Shown: positions 26,069-37,380 of the stretch, piece by piece
Layout: the number at the start of each line of letters is the position of its first letter
Position numbering within the stretch: the stretch's first letter is position 1
From: Aureimonas pseudogalii
Lineage (GTDB): Bacteria > Pseudomonadota > Alphaproteobacteria > Rhizobiales > Rhizobiaceae
Direction: 5' to 3'
Length of the DNA stretch: 64,000 nt
Assembly (NCBI RefSeq): GCF_014196835.1
Contig: NZ_JACIEK010000001.1
Span: 756,283 to 820,282, forward strand
The notes under the pieces: model-generated
Database searches by the model: none
Seen by the model: only the letters and a program-made list of their open reading frames with translations
Told to the model about the DNA's origin: nothing
Made by a program: the position numbers and the translations under genes

Positions 26069-26713
26069 TTAAGCGAACAGCTTTAGGTTTGCAACATCGA
26101 TTTTAATCGGATGAAGCGCACCGCAGATATTCGGAATGACCTTGGCTGAGTGCTTGCCGAAGTAGTCATCGAAAACGAAGGTCACGCCGCGAAGCGGACC
26201 ATCCTTCACCGTGACCGTGTCGCCGGGCTGAAAGCGTACGCCCTCCTCTTCCAGTGTGCCAACCACACCCGCCGCTTCGATCGCACGGAAGGCATCGACA
26301 ATCCCGGCGGCGATCGGCACGTAGCGCGAGCGCTCCGGTGCCGACAGGTCGTCCATCCGACGGCCGAGCACCGAGTGGACGCCGTCCACCTGCCGCAGAT
26401 CGTAGAACGACGGCGAGTCCACCGACAGGCCAGCGAACAGGTAACCCGTCAGCAGCGGGAAGCTGACAGCTGTCTTTGTGCGCTTGTGGCGACGCCACAT
26501 GTGCTTCACCCCGCGTGGCAGGTGCGCCTGGAAGCCGCGTGCCAACAAGCCTGCGGTCACCCGCTCCTCACAACGCGGGTTCGTCTTCACCACGAACCAT
26601 ACCGTCTCGCCGCCTTGCTCGACGAGGCGCGGCTTCGCATAAGGCGCGACCCATGTCTCGCCGCGCTCTAGCCAAGCCGCCTGCTCCGCCAGCGTCGGAA
26701 ACGAAGCCTTCAT
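26069..26713 (-). CDS. NusG/RfaH-like transcription elongation or antitermination factor
   Basis: 214 aa from ATG 26713; a start at 26782 would add 23 residues that lie in the repeat block. Residues 38-115 are a NusG N-terminal domain: WFVVKTNPRCEERV, then HLPRGVKHMWRRHKRTKT and PLLTGYLF (86-93). Residues 161-193 are a KOW motif (FQPGDTVTVKDGPLRGVTFVF). Such paralogs bind RNA polymerase and suppress termination at specific operons. It is the last gene of the early operon, right before a terminator and the late genes, the same place as lambda Q. Antitermination of the late operon is the natural reading but is inference. Confidence 0.87.
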   Translation of the reverse strand: MKASFPTLAEQAAWLERGETWVAPYAKPRLVEQGGETVWFVVKTNPRCEERVTAGLLARGFQAHLPRGVKHMWRRHKRTKTAVSFPLLTGYLFAGLSVDSPSFYDLRQVDGVHSVLGRRMDDLSAPERSRYVPIAAGIVDAFRAIEAAGVVGTLEEEGVRFQPGDTVTVKDGPLRGVTFVFDDYFGKHSAKVIPNICGALHPIKIDVANLKLFA

Positions 26714-26734: not shown

Positions 26735-27035
26735 AATGATTTCAATGGTTTCGGACGCTAGAGAGGCAACCGCTTTGGTCATTTTGCTTGCGTCCCTCTT
26801 AAAACGATCAATGATTTCAGTAAGTTCGGACGCTAGAGAGGCTAGGGAAGCAAGGTTTCCGCATACACATGGCGAGATCAGAGCAAGAGGCTTCGCCTCG
26901 CTGTTGATCCCACGCGCACACGTGATGCGGAAACCTTGCGTCCCCAGCCTCCCTAGCGTCCGAAGCCGTTGTTTCCGTTCGCCCTTTTGCGAGGGACGCA
27001 AGCGTTTCGCGATGGGGCTTGCGTCCCTAGCGTCC
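26735..27035. repeat. Iteron-like block with large inverted repeats; candidate phage origin
   Basis: Eight exact copies of CTWGCGTCC lie here in both orientations: 26753 (-), 26787 (+), 26828 (-), 26935 (+), 26953 (+), 26994 (-), 27018 (+), 27027 (+). There is a 33-bp direct repeat (26735-26767 and 26810-26842, 29 of 33 identical), a 37-bp inverted repeat (26828-26864 and 26925-26961, 34 of 37, 60-bp spacer), and a perfect 12-bp inverted repeat (26992-27003 and 27017-27028). The block begins 25 bp after the helicase stop. Origin iterons for the phage helicase are the best guess; a structured RNA target for the NusG-like factor is the alternative. Confidence 0.75.
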
Positions 27036-27059
27036 CCAAATCGGACCAAAGCGATCGCG

Positions 27060-28868
27060 TCAGTCACGGGGCGAGAACCCCCGGTCGTCGGGCGTGCCGG
27101 TGGTTGGACCGCCGCGGAAGCGTTCCTTGATCTGGATGCCACGGTAGACCGTTGCCCCACCCGTCTTCGATTTCGAGAACTGCGTCATGCGCCCGTCAGG
27201 CGCCTTGAAGGTGCGCCGCGTGAGCTCCGGCAGTCGCCGGTTGAACGTCGCTTGATGCAGCGGGTAGAGCCCTTCCTGCCGGCAGAAGATGACGTAGGCG
27301 TCGTGCAGCGCTCCCGGACCCTCGTGATGCGCCGGCTCGCCGGTCACCTCGCAGGCTCCCCGAATGTACGCGCCCATCGAGTCGCTTTCCTCGCGGTGCT
27401 CCTGCACGGCCGCCCGCACGCTGTCCGGCGGTTCGAGCCCGCCCAAGGTCAGGAACTCCAGCGCCCCGGCGATCATCCAGGCGAGCACGCCGTCGCGCTC
27501 GAGCAGCAGCTTGCGAGTGAGGTGCTTGTCGCGATCCGCCTCCGGGATCTGCACCGGCCATTCCACGAAGTGGAGCCGGCGCCAGATGCCGTCGTCGTCG
27601 TTTTTGATCCGCGGCTTGTGATTGCCGATGATGACGAACTTCGCCTGGACACGGATCTCGACGAACTCCTCGCGCATCTTGCGCACCGGCAGCCGGTCGC
27701 CGCCCGTCAGCGTCTTGATCAGTCCCTCCTTCACCGAAACCCCTTCGTCGCCCTCGCTGGCGATACAGAGGTTGGCGCCATTGAGCCGCACGAGGTCGGG
27801 AGTGGCCGAGGCTCCGTCGCGCTTGGCGTCACCCGTGAACGTGTCGATCGACAGGGTGACCGCGAGGTCCGAGAGGATGGCCGAGATCAGGTCGGCATAG
27901 GTCGATTTGCCGTTCGCGCCGATGCCGTACCAGAAGCCGATCATCTGCTCGGACGTCAGCTTCGTCAGGCAGTAGCCGGCATGACGCTGCAGGTAGGATC
28001 GTTGCTGGATCGCGGGTTGCACGGTCTGCATGAAGGTGTGGAACGTCGGCGCCATACGCTTCGAACCGGCGGCGAAGAAGTCGAGATCGTAAAGCCGGTC
28101 ACCGGGCTCCAGCGGAACACCGTCGGGCCCGCAAGCCGTCGCCTCGCAGAGCTTGGTGATCCAGTCCTCGCGCCGATGCGGGTCGAGCCGCGCCCGCCAG
28201 ACGAAGCGCGGCTCTTCCGGGTCGCTTTCCTCGTCCTCGATGCGCACGAAGCGCAGCGTTCCGTTCCGGCAGTTCAGAGCCAGCGGGTCGGCGTTCATGT
28301 CGTCGAGCCGACGCTTGAGGTGTGGAGACGCCTCGCCGAGCATGTTGTCCATCTTCGCTGAACCAGCGGTGGAGCGCGCATGCGAAGCGCGCCGATCACG
28401 GCGCTTGTCGAGGCGCTCGGTCAGCCGGTCGCGTTCGCGGATTGCGGCCTTCGCCGCAGCGATGCGGCCAGCATCCTCACTCTTCGTCGCATCGGCGAGC
28501 CCCGCTTCGGCCTCGTCTCCGGCCTCGACGATCAGCGCCTCGGCATCCGTCAGCCGGATCTCCTGGCATTCGAAGACGATCGCCTCGGCGGTGCGCTGCG
28601 CCAGCGGGCGGATCACCGAGCCGTCGTCGTCCTCACGCCAGCGCAGGCCGTCATAGCCGTGCCAGCCGATCTTCGCGATGTGCAGGACGTCCGGTCCGAA
28701 ACGGTGAATGAAGCGTCGCCCGTTGCCGATATCGGTCTCTGGCTCGCTGGCGCAGATCGCCAGCAGCGAGACCGTCTCGTTCAGCTTATCCTGCATGCGA
28801 TCCCCCGGCGTCGCGCCGTCGTCGGTTGGTCTGGAAGGGGCACCGGGGCCCATGCTGGAGGCGGTCAT
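27060..28868 (-). CDS. P4-type phage replicative helicase (D5/SF3)
   Basis: 602 aa from the ATG at 28868 overlapping the methyltransferase stop as ATGA. The C-terminal half is the phage/plasmid primase P4-family helicase: D5_N region around 270-310, Walker A GIGANGKST at 315-323, an acidic Walker B segment LCIASEGDEG, and sensor-1 IGNHKPRI. The N-terminal part has a charged coiled coil (AAAKAAIRERDRLTERLDK). The primase domain is separate (gene at 29452). It should open the origin and unwind phage DNA. The ending QIKERFRGGPTTG is unstructured. Confidence 0.92.
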   Translation of the reverse strand: MTASSMGPGAPSRPTDDGATPGDRMQDKLNETVSLLAICASEPETDIGNGRRFIHRFGPDVLHIAKIGWHGYDGLRWREDDDGSVIRPLAQRTAEAIVFECQEIRLTDAEALIVEAGDEAEAGLADATKSEDAGRIAAAKAAIRERDRLTERLDKRRDRRASHARSTAGSAKMDNMLGEASPHLKRRLDDMNADPLALNCRNGTLRFVRIEDEESDPEEPRFVWRARLDPHRREDWITKLCEATACGPDGVPLEPGDRLYDLDFFAAGSKRMAPTFHTFMQTVQPAIQQRSYLQRHAGYCLTKLTSEQMIGFWYGIGANGKSTYADLISAILSDLAVTLSIDTFTGDAKRDGASATPDLVRLNGANLCIASEGDEGVSVKEGLIKTLTGGDRLPVRKMREEFVEIRVQAKFVIIGNHKPRIKNDDDGIWRRLHFVEWPVQIPEADRDKHLTRKLLLERDGVLAWMIAGALEFLTLGGLEPPDSVRAAVQEHREESDSMGAYIRGACEVTGEPAHHEGPGALHDAYVIFCRQEGLYPLHQATFNRRLPELTRRTFKAPDGRMTQFSKSKTGGATVYRGIQIKERFRGGPTTGTPDDRGFSPRD

Positions 28869-29455
28869 GCCGCCGCCACGGCCGGAAACTTCTCGGCCTC
28901 GTTCCCGAAGCCGTCCCATCCGGGTCGGCGCTGGCGGGAGAAGATGTCGGCACGTCGCCCGACGGGCACGAGCGTCTCGATCAGCTGGAAGAACTCTTCG
29001 GGCTTGCGGCTATGCTCGCGTGCCAGCCCGTCGATCGCCGCGTCGCTGAGCGTCTCGATCAGGTTCGGCACCTTGCCCCGGGCAAAGCTGCCGCCCTTCA
29101 GCCGACCGATCAGGAACGGCTCGCAGACCGAGCGCAGCACGAAGCCCGTGCCCCAGCGCAGCTTGCCGTTGACCGTCCGCTTCGCCCAGACGCCGCCCGT
29201 CACCGGTGGCACGCCCCAGCCGCGCATGATCGTCGCCTGCGCCTCGATCAGCGGCCAGGTGCCCCACATGATCAGCATGCCGCCGGGCGCCAGAAGATCG
29301 CCGACCGGCATCGCGGCGATGTCGGCCATCGACATGGTCACGTACTGCGCCTCGGGACTCTTCTCGAGGCCTTTGTCGGAATACGCCTTCCACGGCCACG
29401 GCGGGTCGATCACCACGACATCGTAGGAGAACAGGGGAAGACCGAAGTCGATCAT
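28865..29455 (-). CDS. MT-A70 family adenine-N6 methyltransferase
   Basis: 196 aa. The catalytic DPPW is in VVVIDPPWPW (residues 13-22); the S-adenosylmethionine pocket follows with YVTMSMADIAAMPV and GGMLIMWGTWP, and the C-terminal SRKPEEFFQLIE is typical of MT-A70 enzymes. It probably methylates adenine in phage DNA, either as anti-restriction or to mark replication. It sits between primase and helicase with 4-bp overlaps on both sides. Confidence 0.93.
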   Translation of the reverse strand: MIDFGLPLFSYDVVVIDPPWPWKAYSDKGLEKSPEAQYVTMSMADIAAMPVGDLLAPGGMLIMWGTWPLIEAQATIMRGWGVPPVTGGVWAKRTVNGKLRWGTGFVLRSVCEPFLIGRLKGGSFARGKVPNLIETLSDAAIDGLAREHSRKPEEFFQLIETLVPVGRRADIFSRQRRPGWDGFGNEAEKFPAVAAA

Positions 29456-30708
29456 GCCGTCTCCAGTTCGCGGCTTGGCTTGTATTCGCCCCAGTCGGAG
29501 CCGGCGGGGGCGAACATCGAGAGGACGGTGCGGCCGTCGCGGGCGTGCCGGGCAACGCCGCGGCGCAGTGCGGCGCGGGTCATCACGACCTCGCTGTCGC
29601 CATCGCCGAGCAGCACGAGCTCGACGATATGGTCGGGCACCGGCAGACAGATCGCGTCGAGGTCCGGCTCGAAACCGGGCACCATCAGCGGACGCGTCGC
29701 GCCGCCCTTGATCGTCCGCCGCAGCGTCGGGTGCCGGATGCGGCTGGTGACGAGCGCCTTGCCGCAGAGGTTTCCGAGATCGCCGGCGGCGCAGTAGAAT
29801 GTGTCGGCCCGGTGCCCGTCGAAGGCAGCGAAGCCCAGCGCGGTCTCGATCCCCTCGCCCGCCACCATCCGCGTCGACGTGCCCAGGCGACCGATCACCG
29901 GGATCAGACCGCCGGCCTTCGAGCCCTGCATCTTTTTCGTTGCCAGCGACTCGCCGGTCTCGGGATCGCGCAAGGCGGGCCGGAACTTGGGCGCGGCGTC
30001 GAGATCAATCCAGGTGCGGTGCAGACCGATCATCCGCCATTGCCCGTCCTCGGGCCGCACGAACGGTGCGACCATCGCAGGGCCGGTGTGGATCAAACGC
30101 GAAGGGCCCCGCTCGAGCTTATGGAAGAACCCGAGGCGCGGATGGGTACGCAGGTAGGAGTTCTCAACGGCCGTAATGTCGAGGCCGCGCGCCGAGAGAT
30201 ACCGACGGGCGTCGTCGTGCTGCTCGTCGCGCAGGCCGAAACTGTCGGCGAAGGTCTCGCGGCACCGCGCCATCTCCCTCGCCCGATATTCGTTCTCGCC
30301 GGCCTCACGCTTCGCGTCGGCGGCGGCCGCCACCCGGCGCTGCTCGGCGATGCGGGCCTCGGCGGCGCGCAGGCGCTCCCGGCGCTCGCGGTCGTCGCCG
30401 TCGGCGCGGTCGGGCCGTTCCTGTCCGATCAAGATCTCGCAGGCGTCAAGGAAGTCCTGCCCCGTCAGATGCTGCGCAAGAGCGATCGCGTCACCGCCGC
30501 CGAAGCCGCGGCAGTTGAAGACGCCCTTGGCCGGCGCAATCGAGAACCGATCCTTGCCACCGCAGGCCGGGCACGGCCCAACATACTCGCCGCCGGTCCG
30601 GCGCAAGCGCGACAGGCTGTAGCCGCAGCGCTCGAACGCCTGCTCGACGCGCACGGCTTTGGCCTCCGCGACGAACGCGTCCATTTCGGGCGAGCGGTCG
30701 CGAGTCAT
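29452..30708 (-). CDS. Phage primase with zinc finger and Toprim domain
   Basis: 418 aa. Residues 41-72 form a CHC2/P4-type zinc finger (CPACGGKDRFSI, then FNCRGFGGGD). A charged linker follows, then a Toprim-type catalytic part with GEGIETALGFAA at about 285 and LGDGDSEVVM near 365. It makes RNA primers for phage replication and works with the neighbouring helicase. Start and stop overlap neighbours by 4 bp. Confidence 0.92.
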   Translation of the reverse strand: MTRDRSPEMDAFVAEAKAVRVEQAFERCGYSLSRLRRTGGEYVGPCPACGGKDRFSIAPAKGVFNCRGFGGGDAIALAQHLTGQDFLDACEILIGQERPDRADGDDRERRERLRAAEARIAEQRRVAAAADAKREAGENEYRAREMARCRETFADSFGLRDEQHDDARRYLSARGLDITAVENSYLRTHPRLGFFHKLERGPSRLIHTGPAMVAPFVRPEDGQWRMIGLHRTWIDLDAAPKFRPALRDPETGESLATKKMQGSKAGGLIPVIGRLGTSTRMVAGEGIETALGFAAFDGHRADTFYCAAGDLGNLCGKALVTSRIRHPTLRRTIKGGATRPLMVPGFEPDLDAICLPVPDHIVELVLLGDGDSEVVMTRAALRRGVARHARDGRTVLSMFAPAGSDWGEYKPSRELETA

Positions 30709-35233: not shown

Positions 35234-36253
35234 ATGGCCGAGACCACGCAGACCACCGCCGCCACGTTGACGGCGGCCCCGATCACCGATCTCAGGATCG
35301 ACGGCAGCGCCGTCGACATGCTCGCCGCGCTCGGCTCCAAGGCGACCGGCGTCGAGATCACGATCGTCGACTACGACACCGGCATCCCCGGCCTGCCCGA
35401 CCAGTTCCCGGTCGGCGTCGTCCACGGCGACGAGCCCCGGCTCGTCAGCGTCAAGGCGTTCGCCGACGAGTGGCGCACCCATCCGCCCTTCCGCATCGGC
35501 CAGGCGCGTGCGCTGACGCTCGAGAGCTTCATCGCCTTGGTGAACCGCCAGAAGGAGGCCGACAGCGCCATCTTCTGCGACAGCGACTGGCGCAAGCCCG
35601 CGATGACGGCAGTGATCGACTACCACGCCAGCGACGACGATCGCGACGCCACCGAGATCGGCGCCGGCAAGCACCGCGTCCACTACGCCTTCCCGCTCTC
35701 GGAGGAGTGGAAGGGCTGGATCAAGGGCGACGGCGTGCCGATGTCGCAGCAGGACTTCGCCGAGATGATCGAGGACCGGATCGGCGACCTCGTGGCGCCC
35801 GAGGACGCCTGGGCGGCGCGCGCCGAGCGCGACTTCCAGACCCGCATCGCCAACCCCGCGCAGATGCTGACGCTCTCGCGGGGGCTGGAGGTGAACGTCG
35901 AGGCGCGGGTGAAGGAGAGCAAGGTTCTCCAGTCCGGCGAGGGCTCGCTGGTCTTCGAGGAGACGCACAAGGATTCGTCGGGCGCGGCGATCAAGGTGCC
36001 CGGCCTCTTCATGCTGCGCATCGCGCCCTTTTTCATGGGCGACCCCGTCGAGATCCCGGTGCGGCTGCGCTACCGCGTCCGCGCCGGCGCGATCATCTGG
36101 ATCTACCAGATCTACCGGCCCGACCAGTCGATCACCGAGGCGGTGCGCGCCGCGATGCAGGACGTGCGCGCCAAGACCGAGCTTCCGGTCTTCGAGGGCG
36201 CGCCGGAAATGCTGGCCGACGGCAAGCCCGTCACCGGCTTCACGGGAGCCTGA
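35234..36253 (+). CDS. DUF2303 / YfdQ family phage protein
   Basis: 339 aa with AAAGGAGG eight bases before the ATG. The family is named after YfdQ of an E. coli cryptic prophage; its function is unknown. Typical segments are TLESFIALVNRQKEADSAIFCD, MTAVIDYHASDDD, HRVHYAFPLSEEWKGW and VPGLFMLRIAPFFMGDPVEIPVRLRYRV (given in pieces). It stands five bases before the sliding clamp gene. Confidence 0.9.
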   Translation: MAETTQTTAATLTAAPITDLRIDGSAVDMLAALGSKATGVEITIVDYDTGIPGLPDQFPVGVVHGDEPRLVSVKAFADEWRTHPPFRIGQARALTLESFIALVNRQKEADSAIFCDSDWRKPAMTAVIDYHASDDDRDATEIGAGKHRVHYAFPLSEEWKGWIKGDGVPMSQQDFAEMIEDRIGDLVAPEDAWAARAERDFQTRIANPAQMLTLSRGLEVNVEARVKESKVLQSGEGSLVFEETHKDSSGAAIKVPGLFMLRIAPFFMGDPVEIPVRLRYRVRAGAIIWIYQIYRPDQSITEAVRAAMQDVRAKTELPVFEGAPEMLADGKPVTGFTGA

Positions 36254-36258
36254 CGCCG

Positions 36259-37380
36259 ATGGCCGTCGACTTCACCGTCCCCCACGACACCTTCCGCAAG
36301 CTGGTCTCGCGTACGCTGAAGGTGGTCGAGCGGCGGAACACGATCCCGATCCTCGCCAACGTGCTGGTGGCGGTGGAGGACGACGGCCGCCTCTCGGTCG
36401 AGGGCACCGACCTCGACCTCTCGATCCGCGCCACGGCGCCGGCCCACACCGCCACCGTGCGCAAGGCCGGCGCCACCACCGTGCCCGCGGCGCTGCTCTC
36501 CTCCATCCTCGCCAAGGTGAAGGGCGAGGTGCGCTTCCACTCCGACGAGCGCCACGCCGCGCTCACCTGCGGGCGCGCCGAGTTCCGGCTGAACGAACTG
36601 CCGGTGGCCGACTTCCCCGAGTTCGCCAGCGAAGAGATGCCACACGGCTTCACGCTGGGGCCGGCGCACCTGAAGCGCATCGTCGCCGACGTCGCCTTCG
36701 CGATCTCGACCGAGGAGACGCGCTACTATCTCAACGGCATCCTGCTGGAGCGAGGTCCGGAGGGCGAACTCGTCGCCGTCGCCACCGACGGGCACCGGCT
36801 GTCCAAGCTCGTGCAGCGCCTCGCCGAGCCCGTGGCCGAGATGCCGCGCATCATCGTGCCCCGCAAGACCGTCGGGCTCTTCGGCGACATCGCCGAGGCC
36901 TGCGACGGCGACGAGGCCGTCGAGGTGCGCTTCTCCGAGGGACGGCTGGAGTTCGAGGCGCCCGGCCTGCGGCTGCGCTCGAAGCTGATCGACGGCACCT
37001 TCCCCGACTACAACCGCGTCATCCCCTCCGGCAACGAGCACCTCGCTCGTTTCGAGCCGACCGCGCTCGCCGCGGCGGTGGATCGGGTCGCCACCGTCTC
37101 GAGCGAGCGCGGTCGCGCCGTGAAGTTCGCCTTCGACGACGGCGTGCTGCGGCTCACCGTGCTCTCGCCCGACGCCGGCTCCGGCGAGGACGAGATCGCC
37201 GTCGAGAACGGCCCGGCCGAGATGGAGATCGGCTTCAACGCCAAATACGTCCTCGACGCACTCGCGACCTTCGCCGTGCCCGTGTTGCAGCTCGCGCTCC
37301 ACGACCCCGGCAGCCCCGCGCTCTTCCAGATCCCCGACGACCCGAGCCGCCTCGTGGTCCTCATGCCGATGAGGGTTTGA
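36259..37380 (+). CDS. dnaN: Phage-encoded DNA polymerase III sliding clamp (beta)
   Basis: 373 aa, the full length of bacterial DnaN. All three clamp domains are present: VVERRNTIPILANVLV early, YYLNGILLERGPEGELVAVATDGHRL in domain 2, and the C-terminal DDPSRLVVLMPMR. The protein tethers a replicative polymerase and other clamp-binding proteins to DNA. A phage copy could recruit host polymerase III to phage forks. It lies in the repressor-controlled rightward operon, between DUF2303 and unknown genes, with no sign of decay. Confidence 0.96.
   Translation: MAVDFTVPHDTFRKLVSRTLKVVERRNTIPILANVLVAVEDDGRLSVEGTDLDLSIRATAPAHTATVRKAGATTVPAALLSSILAKVKGEVRFHSDERHAALTCGRAEFRLNELPVADFPEFASEEMPHGFTLGPAHLKRIVADVAFAISTEETRYYLNGILLERGPEGELVAVATDGHRLSKLVQRLAEPVAEMPRIIVPRKTVGLFGDIAEACDGDEAVEVRFSEGRLEFEAPGLRLRSKLIDGTFPDYNRVIPSGNEHLARFEPTALAAAVDRVATVSSERGRAVKFAFDDGVLRLTVLSPDAGSGEDEIAVENGPAEMEIGFNAKYVLDALATFAVPVLQLALHDPGSPALFQIPDDPSRLVVLMPMRV

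Follow-up and report, generated by a model that had tools for sequence, protein, structure and literature searches.

Iterons beside the primase-helicase gene of an Aureimonas pseudogalii phage: a candidate replication origin with a conserved layout in related tailed phages

Several mobile elements are described as keeping a replication origin next to the gene of their own helicase. The closest are the SaPI/PICI elements, whose origin, in the sections of PMC7581432 that treat it, lies directly 3' of rep and carries iterons that are recognised through the C-terminal domain of Rep. The corresponding sections of PMC6092414 describe this origin as two sets of iterons around an A+T-rich stretch. Rep is characterised in excerpts of both papers as a self-loading initiator helicase, and the helicase of SaPI5 as D5_N-type (PMC7581432, PMC6092414). 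The SCCmec helicase Cch2 is also of the D5_N type, and its C-terminal domain, taken alone, binds direct repeats that lie beyond the end of the gene, according to the part of PMC7581432 devoted to it. Excerpted text of PMC4234260 places the origin of the Sulfolobus plasmid pRN1 just 3' of the gene of an SF3 helicase with a C-terminal winged helix. A run-off replication origin of Bartonella is described beside a Twinkle-like helicase in the portion of PMC2697382 concerned, which makes it a parallel and not a homologue.

This analysis concerned a block of short repeats in a phage of Aureimonas pseudogalii. The block lies in the window, which is the whole stretch of DNA analysed, 64 kb long. A preliminary description had proposed that the block may be an origin beside a P4-type helicase, perhaps an origin of a new type. 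The origin part of that proposal is the best-supported reading: the cluster is conserved, and its version is associated with the helicase, notably with the C-terminal winged helix. A wholly new type it does not seem to be, since SaPI/PICI Rep helicases use a similar arrangement. We put the probability that the element at 26752-27036 is the phage's replication origin at roughly 0.8, judging from sequence comparison. The best reading is that it would be an origin of the SaPI/PICI kind, read by the C-terminal domain of the helicase, in complete tailed phages.

The genes run on the minus strand in the order primase, MT-A70 methylase, D5_N/DUF5906 helicase, element, NusG-like gene, tail/neck protein, TerS, TerL and portal, with terS about 1.8-2.0 kb beyond the element. 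The terminase, portal and tail-completion genes that follow the element mark a complete phage, not a satellite. The features next to the element are these:

29452..30708, minus strand, the helicase's strand: phage DNA primase (zinc ribbon, DUF7146, PHROG DNA primase)
27060..28919, minus strand: D5_N/DUF5906 (SF3) primase-helicase, the proposed initiator (Pfam D5_N 9.5e-16, DUF5906 2.9e-8; PHROG DNA primase match 1.3e-106)
26069..26713, minus strand: NusG-like protein (phrog_6386, Pfam NusG)

The start of the NusG-like gene is uncertain, and may be the ATG at 26713, with AGGAAAAGG upstream, or the ATG at 26782. With the NusG protein of the window as query, no relative was found in viral contigs and one record was found in phage records. 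Elsewhere in the window, at 35470-37380 on the plus strand, the C-terminal part of an ORF resembles a DNA polymerase sliding clamp by eye, so the phage may bring its own clamp; the phage AmM-1 annotates a processivity factor.

The preliminary description had counted eight exact copies of CTWGCGTCC within 283 bp and a degenerate ninth near 26845. All eight copies in the 64-kb window indeed lie at 26753-27035 (1.35 expected; at most 4 in 100 shuffles), and the ninth was found at 26846-26854. A better description of the unit is a 9-bp iteron, GGGACGCWA, which occurs in tandem at an exact 9-bp spacing. Twelve such sites with at most two mismatches lie in 26752-27036. The remainder of the window averages 1.22 per 301 bp, with no more than six in any 301-bp stretch. 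Five of the twelve are perfect, and the remaining window has no perfect site. On the minus strand, which is the sense strand of the adjoining genes, the order is > > < > > > (82 bp) < < < > < <, so that the 12 iterons form a near-perfect dyad around an 82-bp spacer. The gap from triple to single is 30 bp on each side, and the gaps from single to pair are 17 and 18 bp. Position 5 of the iteron is G in three of the 12 sites and A in one, in place of C. From the helicase side to the late-gene side, the parts of the element are:

26752..27036, minus strand: the whole element, twelve 9-bp iterons in dyad, proposed replication origin (motif scan)
27019-27027 and 27028-27036, minus strand: outer iteron pair (> >) of the helicase-proximal half, 0 mismatches
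26993..27001, plus strand: single inverted iteron (<) of the helicase-proximal half, 0 mismatches
26936..26962, minus strand: tandem iteron triple (> > >) at 9-bp spacing, with 0, 2 and 1 mismatches at 26936, 26945 and 26954
26854..26935, no strand: the 82-bp spacer between the two iteron sets (motif scan)
26827..26853, plus strand: inverted iteron triple (< < <), with 1, 2 and 1 mismatches at 26827, 26836 and 26845
26788..26796, minus strand: single iteron (>) of the late-gene-proximal half, 0 mismatches
26774..26823, no strand: the 50-mer of lowest G+C in the region (36%, window 68%), a candidate unwinding element
26752..26769, plus strand: outer inverted iteron pair (< <), with 1 and 2 mismatches at 26752 and 26761

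The element begins 24 bp past the stop of the helicase gene (stop at 27060). The longer repeats reported earlier are also there. The 33-bp direct repeat is found at 26735/26810, with an offset of 75 bp and 88% identity. The inverted repeat given as 37 bp has 40-nt arms that are 93% complementary (26825-26864 / 26925-26964, with the 60-bp spacer reported), and the perfect 12-bp inverted repeat sits within the inverted-repeat pair 26989-27003 / 27017-27031.

A search for the motif cluster among related prophages, suggested in the preliminary description, found it conserved in related phages, the layout recurring after the helicase gene in many phages of alphaproteobacteria. Viral contigs were scanned for a tandem pair of the nonamer, which gave 34 loci; in several of these the pair stands, as in the window, between that helicase and those late genes. 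A helicase profile search was then the source of two overlapping lists with some phages in both, one from the best 80 of 561 viral relatives and one of 79 genomic loci from the best 80 of 90. The loci with a plus-strand helicase that were examined numbered 163, near-duplicates included. At least three copies of GGGA[CG]GCWA within 500 bp were found in 65 of the 163, with the cluster at -10 to 293 bp after the helicase stop in 56 and at 420-2208 bp in nine. The base at position 5 is uniform among the counted copies in 51 of the 65 loci and mixed C/G in 14. The gene downstream of the element is phrog_9306-type in 57 of these loci, NusG in 5 and neither assignment in 3; phrog_9306 was matched directly in 10 scanned proteins, and the other members were assigned by BLAST clustering (two clusters).

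Other versions of the iteron were sought as any 9-mer GGNNNNNWA with at least three copies of one version. This was found in 106 of 160 scorable loci, near-duplicates included, the scorable loci being the 163 minus three with less than 250 bp after the helicase stop; in 54 of the 160 no such 9-mer was present in three copies. The 106 loci have 17 versions: GGGACGC (32 loci), GGGAGGC (24), GGGACGA (9), GGGACGG (7), GGGAGGA (7), GGACAGA (6), GGACAGC (5) and ten rarer ones. Phage records with a similar layout are AmM-1, with GGGAGGCWA, and RcapNL, with GGGACGCAA; judged by eye, it is also present in RR1-A (GGACAGCWA) and in a Synechococcus/Nostoc phage (GGGAGGATA), and RcCronus is a weaker candidate. 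No published description of the element was found in the open-access library searched.

Helicases at least 90% identical were thinned, which reduced the 106 loci to a non-redundant set of 71. Two iteron sets around a spacer of about 90 bp (median) were found in 68 of the 71, and a > ... < centre could be set under a stricter rule in 67. Of these 67 loci, 62 have a tandem run of at least two iterons next to the spacer on its left side, and 61 have one on its right. The commonest set size is six per side (21/67 and 31/67), where about one chance site per side is expected. The spacers have 52% G+C vs 62% for whole loci, and 81% of the 68 spacers contain an alternating purine-pyrimidine tract of at least 10, vs 5% of control stretches. 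In 90% of the 68 loci the 50-mer of lowest G+C is found downstream, on the late-gene side, over 40 bp from the spacer centre (median 94 bp). No mark of the element is visible in the G+C skew of AmM-1, RcCronus or RcapNL.

Some loci deserve a separate word. In the prophage locus L211 (5305-9063), about 1.6 kb with other ORFs separates the helicase from the element, which adjoins a phrog_9306-cluster gene. A Rhizobiales-type helicase or similar module with element-like repeats was seen in L143, a record titled Bacillus subtilis SK6B4 with an unrelated host name, and in OP858991, PP438413 and PP395636, which have cyanobacterial hosts; these four are possibly contamination or wrong host labels. 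Direct-only nonamer arrays occur in L005 (7591-8211), L021 (387-638), L030 (3338-3472) and L034 (6320-6517), mostly at multiples of 9 bp. Long ORFs overlap them, and they may be coding repeats that have nothing to do with the element; a direct-repeat array as such was rejected as the feature. POI1126 was considered as a plasmid-prophage relative of AmM-1 and dropped, the part of its description consulted relating it to podoviruses.

If TerS, the antiterminator or some other late protein were the reader of the iterons, the iteron version would be expected to go with that protein. The researchers asked in how many of the non-redundant loci a protein's closest relative has the same iteron version. 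The helicase's nearest neighbour shares it in 27 of 71 loci, where 11.4 are expected. The tail/neck protein reaches 11 of 57 (9.1 expected; helicase on those loci 26) and TerL 9 of 38 (6.8 expected; helicase 18). The three TerS families reach 3 of 20 (2.0 expected; helicase 5), 7 of 16 (5.1 expected; helicase 10) and 4 of 11 (3.0 expected; helicase no better, 4). By this measure the iteron version goes with the helicase and hardly with the tail, TerL or TerS proteins. On one and the same 56 loci, phrog_9306 scores 21 and the helicase 19, with 9.2 expected. Because the helicase and phrog_9306 genes both flank the element, linkage must be told apart from function, and the tracking of the iteron by phrog_9306 is what physical linkage by itself would give.

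A part-by-part comparison was limited to the 39 loci carrying all genes. For iteron positions 3-5, the wing of the helicase (0.68) does as well as the larger helicase parts (0.56-0.67), followed by primase and phrog_9306 (0.54 each) and tail (0.38), with a baseline of 0.33. For the full 5-base core, the N-terminal part of the helicase is best (0.49), followed by the C-terminal domain (0.41), the wing (0.39), phrog_9306 (0.36-0.38), primase (0.33) and tail (0.18), with a baseline of 0.16. Two comparisons bear on linkage. The window's nearest relative, L046, whose helicase is about 75% identical, has a phrog_9306-cluster gene where the window has NusG (phrog_6386), and both have GGGACGC despite the different downstream genes. 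The helicases of L105 and L168 share 97% identity across their N-terminal and SF3 parts but 55% in the C-terminal domain, and no other pair among the 546 at 70% or more falls off as far; their iterons are GGACAGMWA and GGAGCGCWA respectively; the L168 element was read by eye at +1.73 kb, and the program picked the same. The NusG swap, the cluster of wing columns described below and the L105/L168 pair in part separate linkage from function. The covariation of helicase and iteron is of moderate strength; linkage confounds part of it, and there are exceptions.

A side observation is that the NusG-like antiterminator (phrog_6386) and the phrog_9306 protein alternate 3' of the element (window 26069-26713, L046, L127, L048, L081, L128), so phrog_9306 may be a functional substitute for the antiterminator. 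The AlphaFold model of phrog_9306 gave no convincing PDB match.

The columns of the helicase which are most closely associated with the iteron lie near its C-terminus:

27129..27317, minus strand: helicase aa 535-597, predicted winged helix (AlphaFold2, pLDDT block means 90-95)
27144..27179, minus strand: helicase aa 581-592, wing hairpin (column scan and AlphaFold2)

When alignment columns were scanned with a correction for overall identity, the top four helicase columns were those of window aa 583, 585, 588 and 589, and in the AlphaFold2 model the iteron-associated residues lie within or close to the hairpin that joins strands aa 582-586 and 589-593. Scans of phrog_9306 and of the tail protein gave no cluster comparable to that of the helicase wing. 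The label-permutation threshold was also passed by a helicase column at about aa 259, outside the wing, and one phrog_9306 column lies just above its own threshold. When labels were simulated on the tree of the helicases, P was 0.016 for the smoothed wing peak, corrected for the search over all columns, and 0.062 for the best single column. A Foldseek search with the C-terminal domain returned nothing at E 0.001 or better. Its best match was the DNA-binding domain of RFX in complex with its DNA site (E 3.1e-3, probability 1.00, target TM 0.60), followed by many ASFV primase-helicase chains. RFX reads its own site mainly via the wing, which would fit the wing-associated columns found here.

The wing columns come from a scan of these same data. 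Within wing classes named post hoc, RxRS wings pair with ACA iterons in 11 of 11 rows, as against 0 of 94 other rows, and a hairpin serine goes with G at iteron position 5 in 27 of 33 cases vs 1 of 48 with C, near-duplicates included. On supported branches RxRS/ACA gives three independent pairs, all three agreeing. Position 5 C/G against the wing serine gives seven independent pairs, of which about four agree and three are without wing change (median p = 0.125); most pairings hold no opposing pair. In both classes the pairs are too few for significance. L198, which has no wing match, was excluded from the wing prediction, the wing-class pair counts and the tree-simulated null. As a nearest-neighbour predictor the wing 10-mer fails among distant helicases (<60% identity), with 0.34 vs 0.43 for the rest of the protein and a baseline of 0.24. 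The wing-iteron rule is local. L051/L126 depart from it, as do the remote L175-L177 and nine loci that combine RxRS wings with GGTGC-type repeats; by eye, it holds in loci beyond the set, among them L047, L053, L056, L095, L145 and L148. A helicase subgroup was also noticed (L063-L067, L090, L146, L149, L166) that has RxRS-type wings plus one extra residue and repeated 8-mers, e.g. ATCGGCAC, GATGGTGC and GGTGCCGA, about 0.5-2 kb past the helicase.

The most serious rival to the origin reading is that the element controls the late operon: it would serve the NusG-like or phrog_9306 gene as operator, promoter or antitermination leader, either by binding that gene's product or as an RNA. It is unlikely, in our judgement. 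The element does sit at the early/late boundary and stays beside the downstream gene, directly upstream of it, even where genes are inserted after the helicase; yet that gene changes between the window and L046 while the iterons stay constant. A NusG-like antiterminator is encoded right beside the element, but NusG is there in just 5 of the 65 element loci and phrog_9306-type genes in 57, which argues against an antitermination leader. The tracking of the iteron by phrog_9306 about as well as by the helicase (21 vs 19) would suit control of that gene, but one phrog_9306 column is barely over the permutation threshold, with no helicase-like cluster. An RNA element or translated leader, named as the alternative in the preliminary description from the in-frame position of the 33-bp repeat, seems the weaker reading. 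What puts the repeat in frame is an overlap between the outermost iteron pair and the initial codons of the next gene, which is NusG-like in the window (where the pair at 26752..26769 overlaps its possible leader codons) and of the phrog_9306 cluster in L046. Direct copies of the iteron tend to covary all together, which RNA pairing does not need, and an Rfam scan found no family at gathering score and two sub-threshold matches, with MIR9772 overlapping the inverted repeat.

Less probable still is a packaging site (cos or pac) with the iterons as TerS binding sites. The element lies about 1.8-2.0 kb before terS, and this reading keeps a small share because the RcapNL record has 26-nt 3' cohesive ends annotated next to the iterons in its own copy of the element; however, RcapNL is listed as circularly permuted in the part of PMC8601537 concerned, and the same part gives the RcCronus ends as a 13-base 5' overhang. 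The RcCronus record starts 47 bp before terS, with its candidate element about 1.3 kb from the record end, and the iteron version is near chance with respect to the relatedness of TerS (three families of 11-20 loci each, an indirect comparison) and hardly goes with that of TerL. A mobile or selfish palindromic repeat of REP/MITE type, there by chance, could explain a long inverted repeat with repeated units, but its probability is close to nil: comparable positions are occupied in many phages, and the window cluster is the sole one in the 5.0-Mb genome, where GGACGCWAG is rarer than its reversed control (56 vs 123). A host or mobile repeat was rejected on these grounds.

If the element is the origin, replication may proceed as follows. 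Helicase subunits would bind the iterons through their C-terminal domain. With about six sites, each half could accommodate a single hexamer, and the two helicase rings would face each other. Melting would take place either in the spacer or in the A+T-rich stretch towards the late genes, primers would come from the adjacent primase, and replication would leave the element, probably in both directions. More tentatively, and at somewhat less than even odds, there may be one origin architecture across a temperate phage family, with an address in at least 17 versions that is read by an RFX-like winged helix through its wing instead of the customary recognition helix, and with winged helix and origin forming an exchangeable cassette, as L105/L168 would suggest. 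Such a cassette could let co-resident phages escape each other's initiator and, if true, would mean replication incompatibility groups with a readable protein-DNA code. The element marks candidate origins in dozens of phages. Since the relatives have the same layout and different site sequences, recognition is open to study across the family, and they would offer a natural series of initiator-iteron pairs for studying how SF3 helicases read origins.

The resemblance of the helicase to known initiators was seen in a profile comparison. The window helicase matches PDB 7ola, which we take to be SaPI5 Rep, at 2.4e-9 over profile positions 265-561, from the helicase core to the start of the C-terminal domain. 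ASFV C962R has the better score (4.2e-11), though along a shorter stretch. By itself, the C-terminal domain gives 7ola at only 0.057, in a match that does not reach the wing. This match, together with the parallel of a Rep whose iterons lie 3' of its own gene, points to the origin reading. P4 alpha differs from the window phage in having primase and helicase in one protein, and its structure was absent among the 50 fold matches listed, of 447. pRN1 is alike in the position of its origin 3' of the gene of an SF3 winged-helix helicase, as described in the excerpts of PMC4234260, and unlike in that it has a large stem-loop and no iterons. The putative origin of SCCmec Cch2 has three 5-nt iterons, with no two-set dyad described in the relevant part of PMC7581432.

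The likeness to SaPI/PICI elements, so far as the cited portions describe them, is that the element lies directly 3' of the helicase gene, that it has two sets of short iterons, and that the helicase is D5_N-type. It differs from them in having the primase in a separate gene, tandem 9-bp units with dyad-symmetric singles, many iteron versions, and a spacer that is just mildly A+T-rich and has an alternating purine-pyrimidine tract. The kind of origin, as read here, is thus already known; what would be new is its presence in complete tailed phages, the at least 17 iteron versions and the apparent reading by the wing. That complete phages of alphaproteobacteria have a similar layout would suggest kinship or convergence between PICI-type replicons and those of phages. 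The element would resemble a PICI origin in its working, yet its carrier is a complete tailed phage and no PICI.
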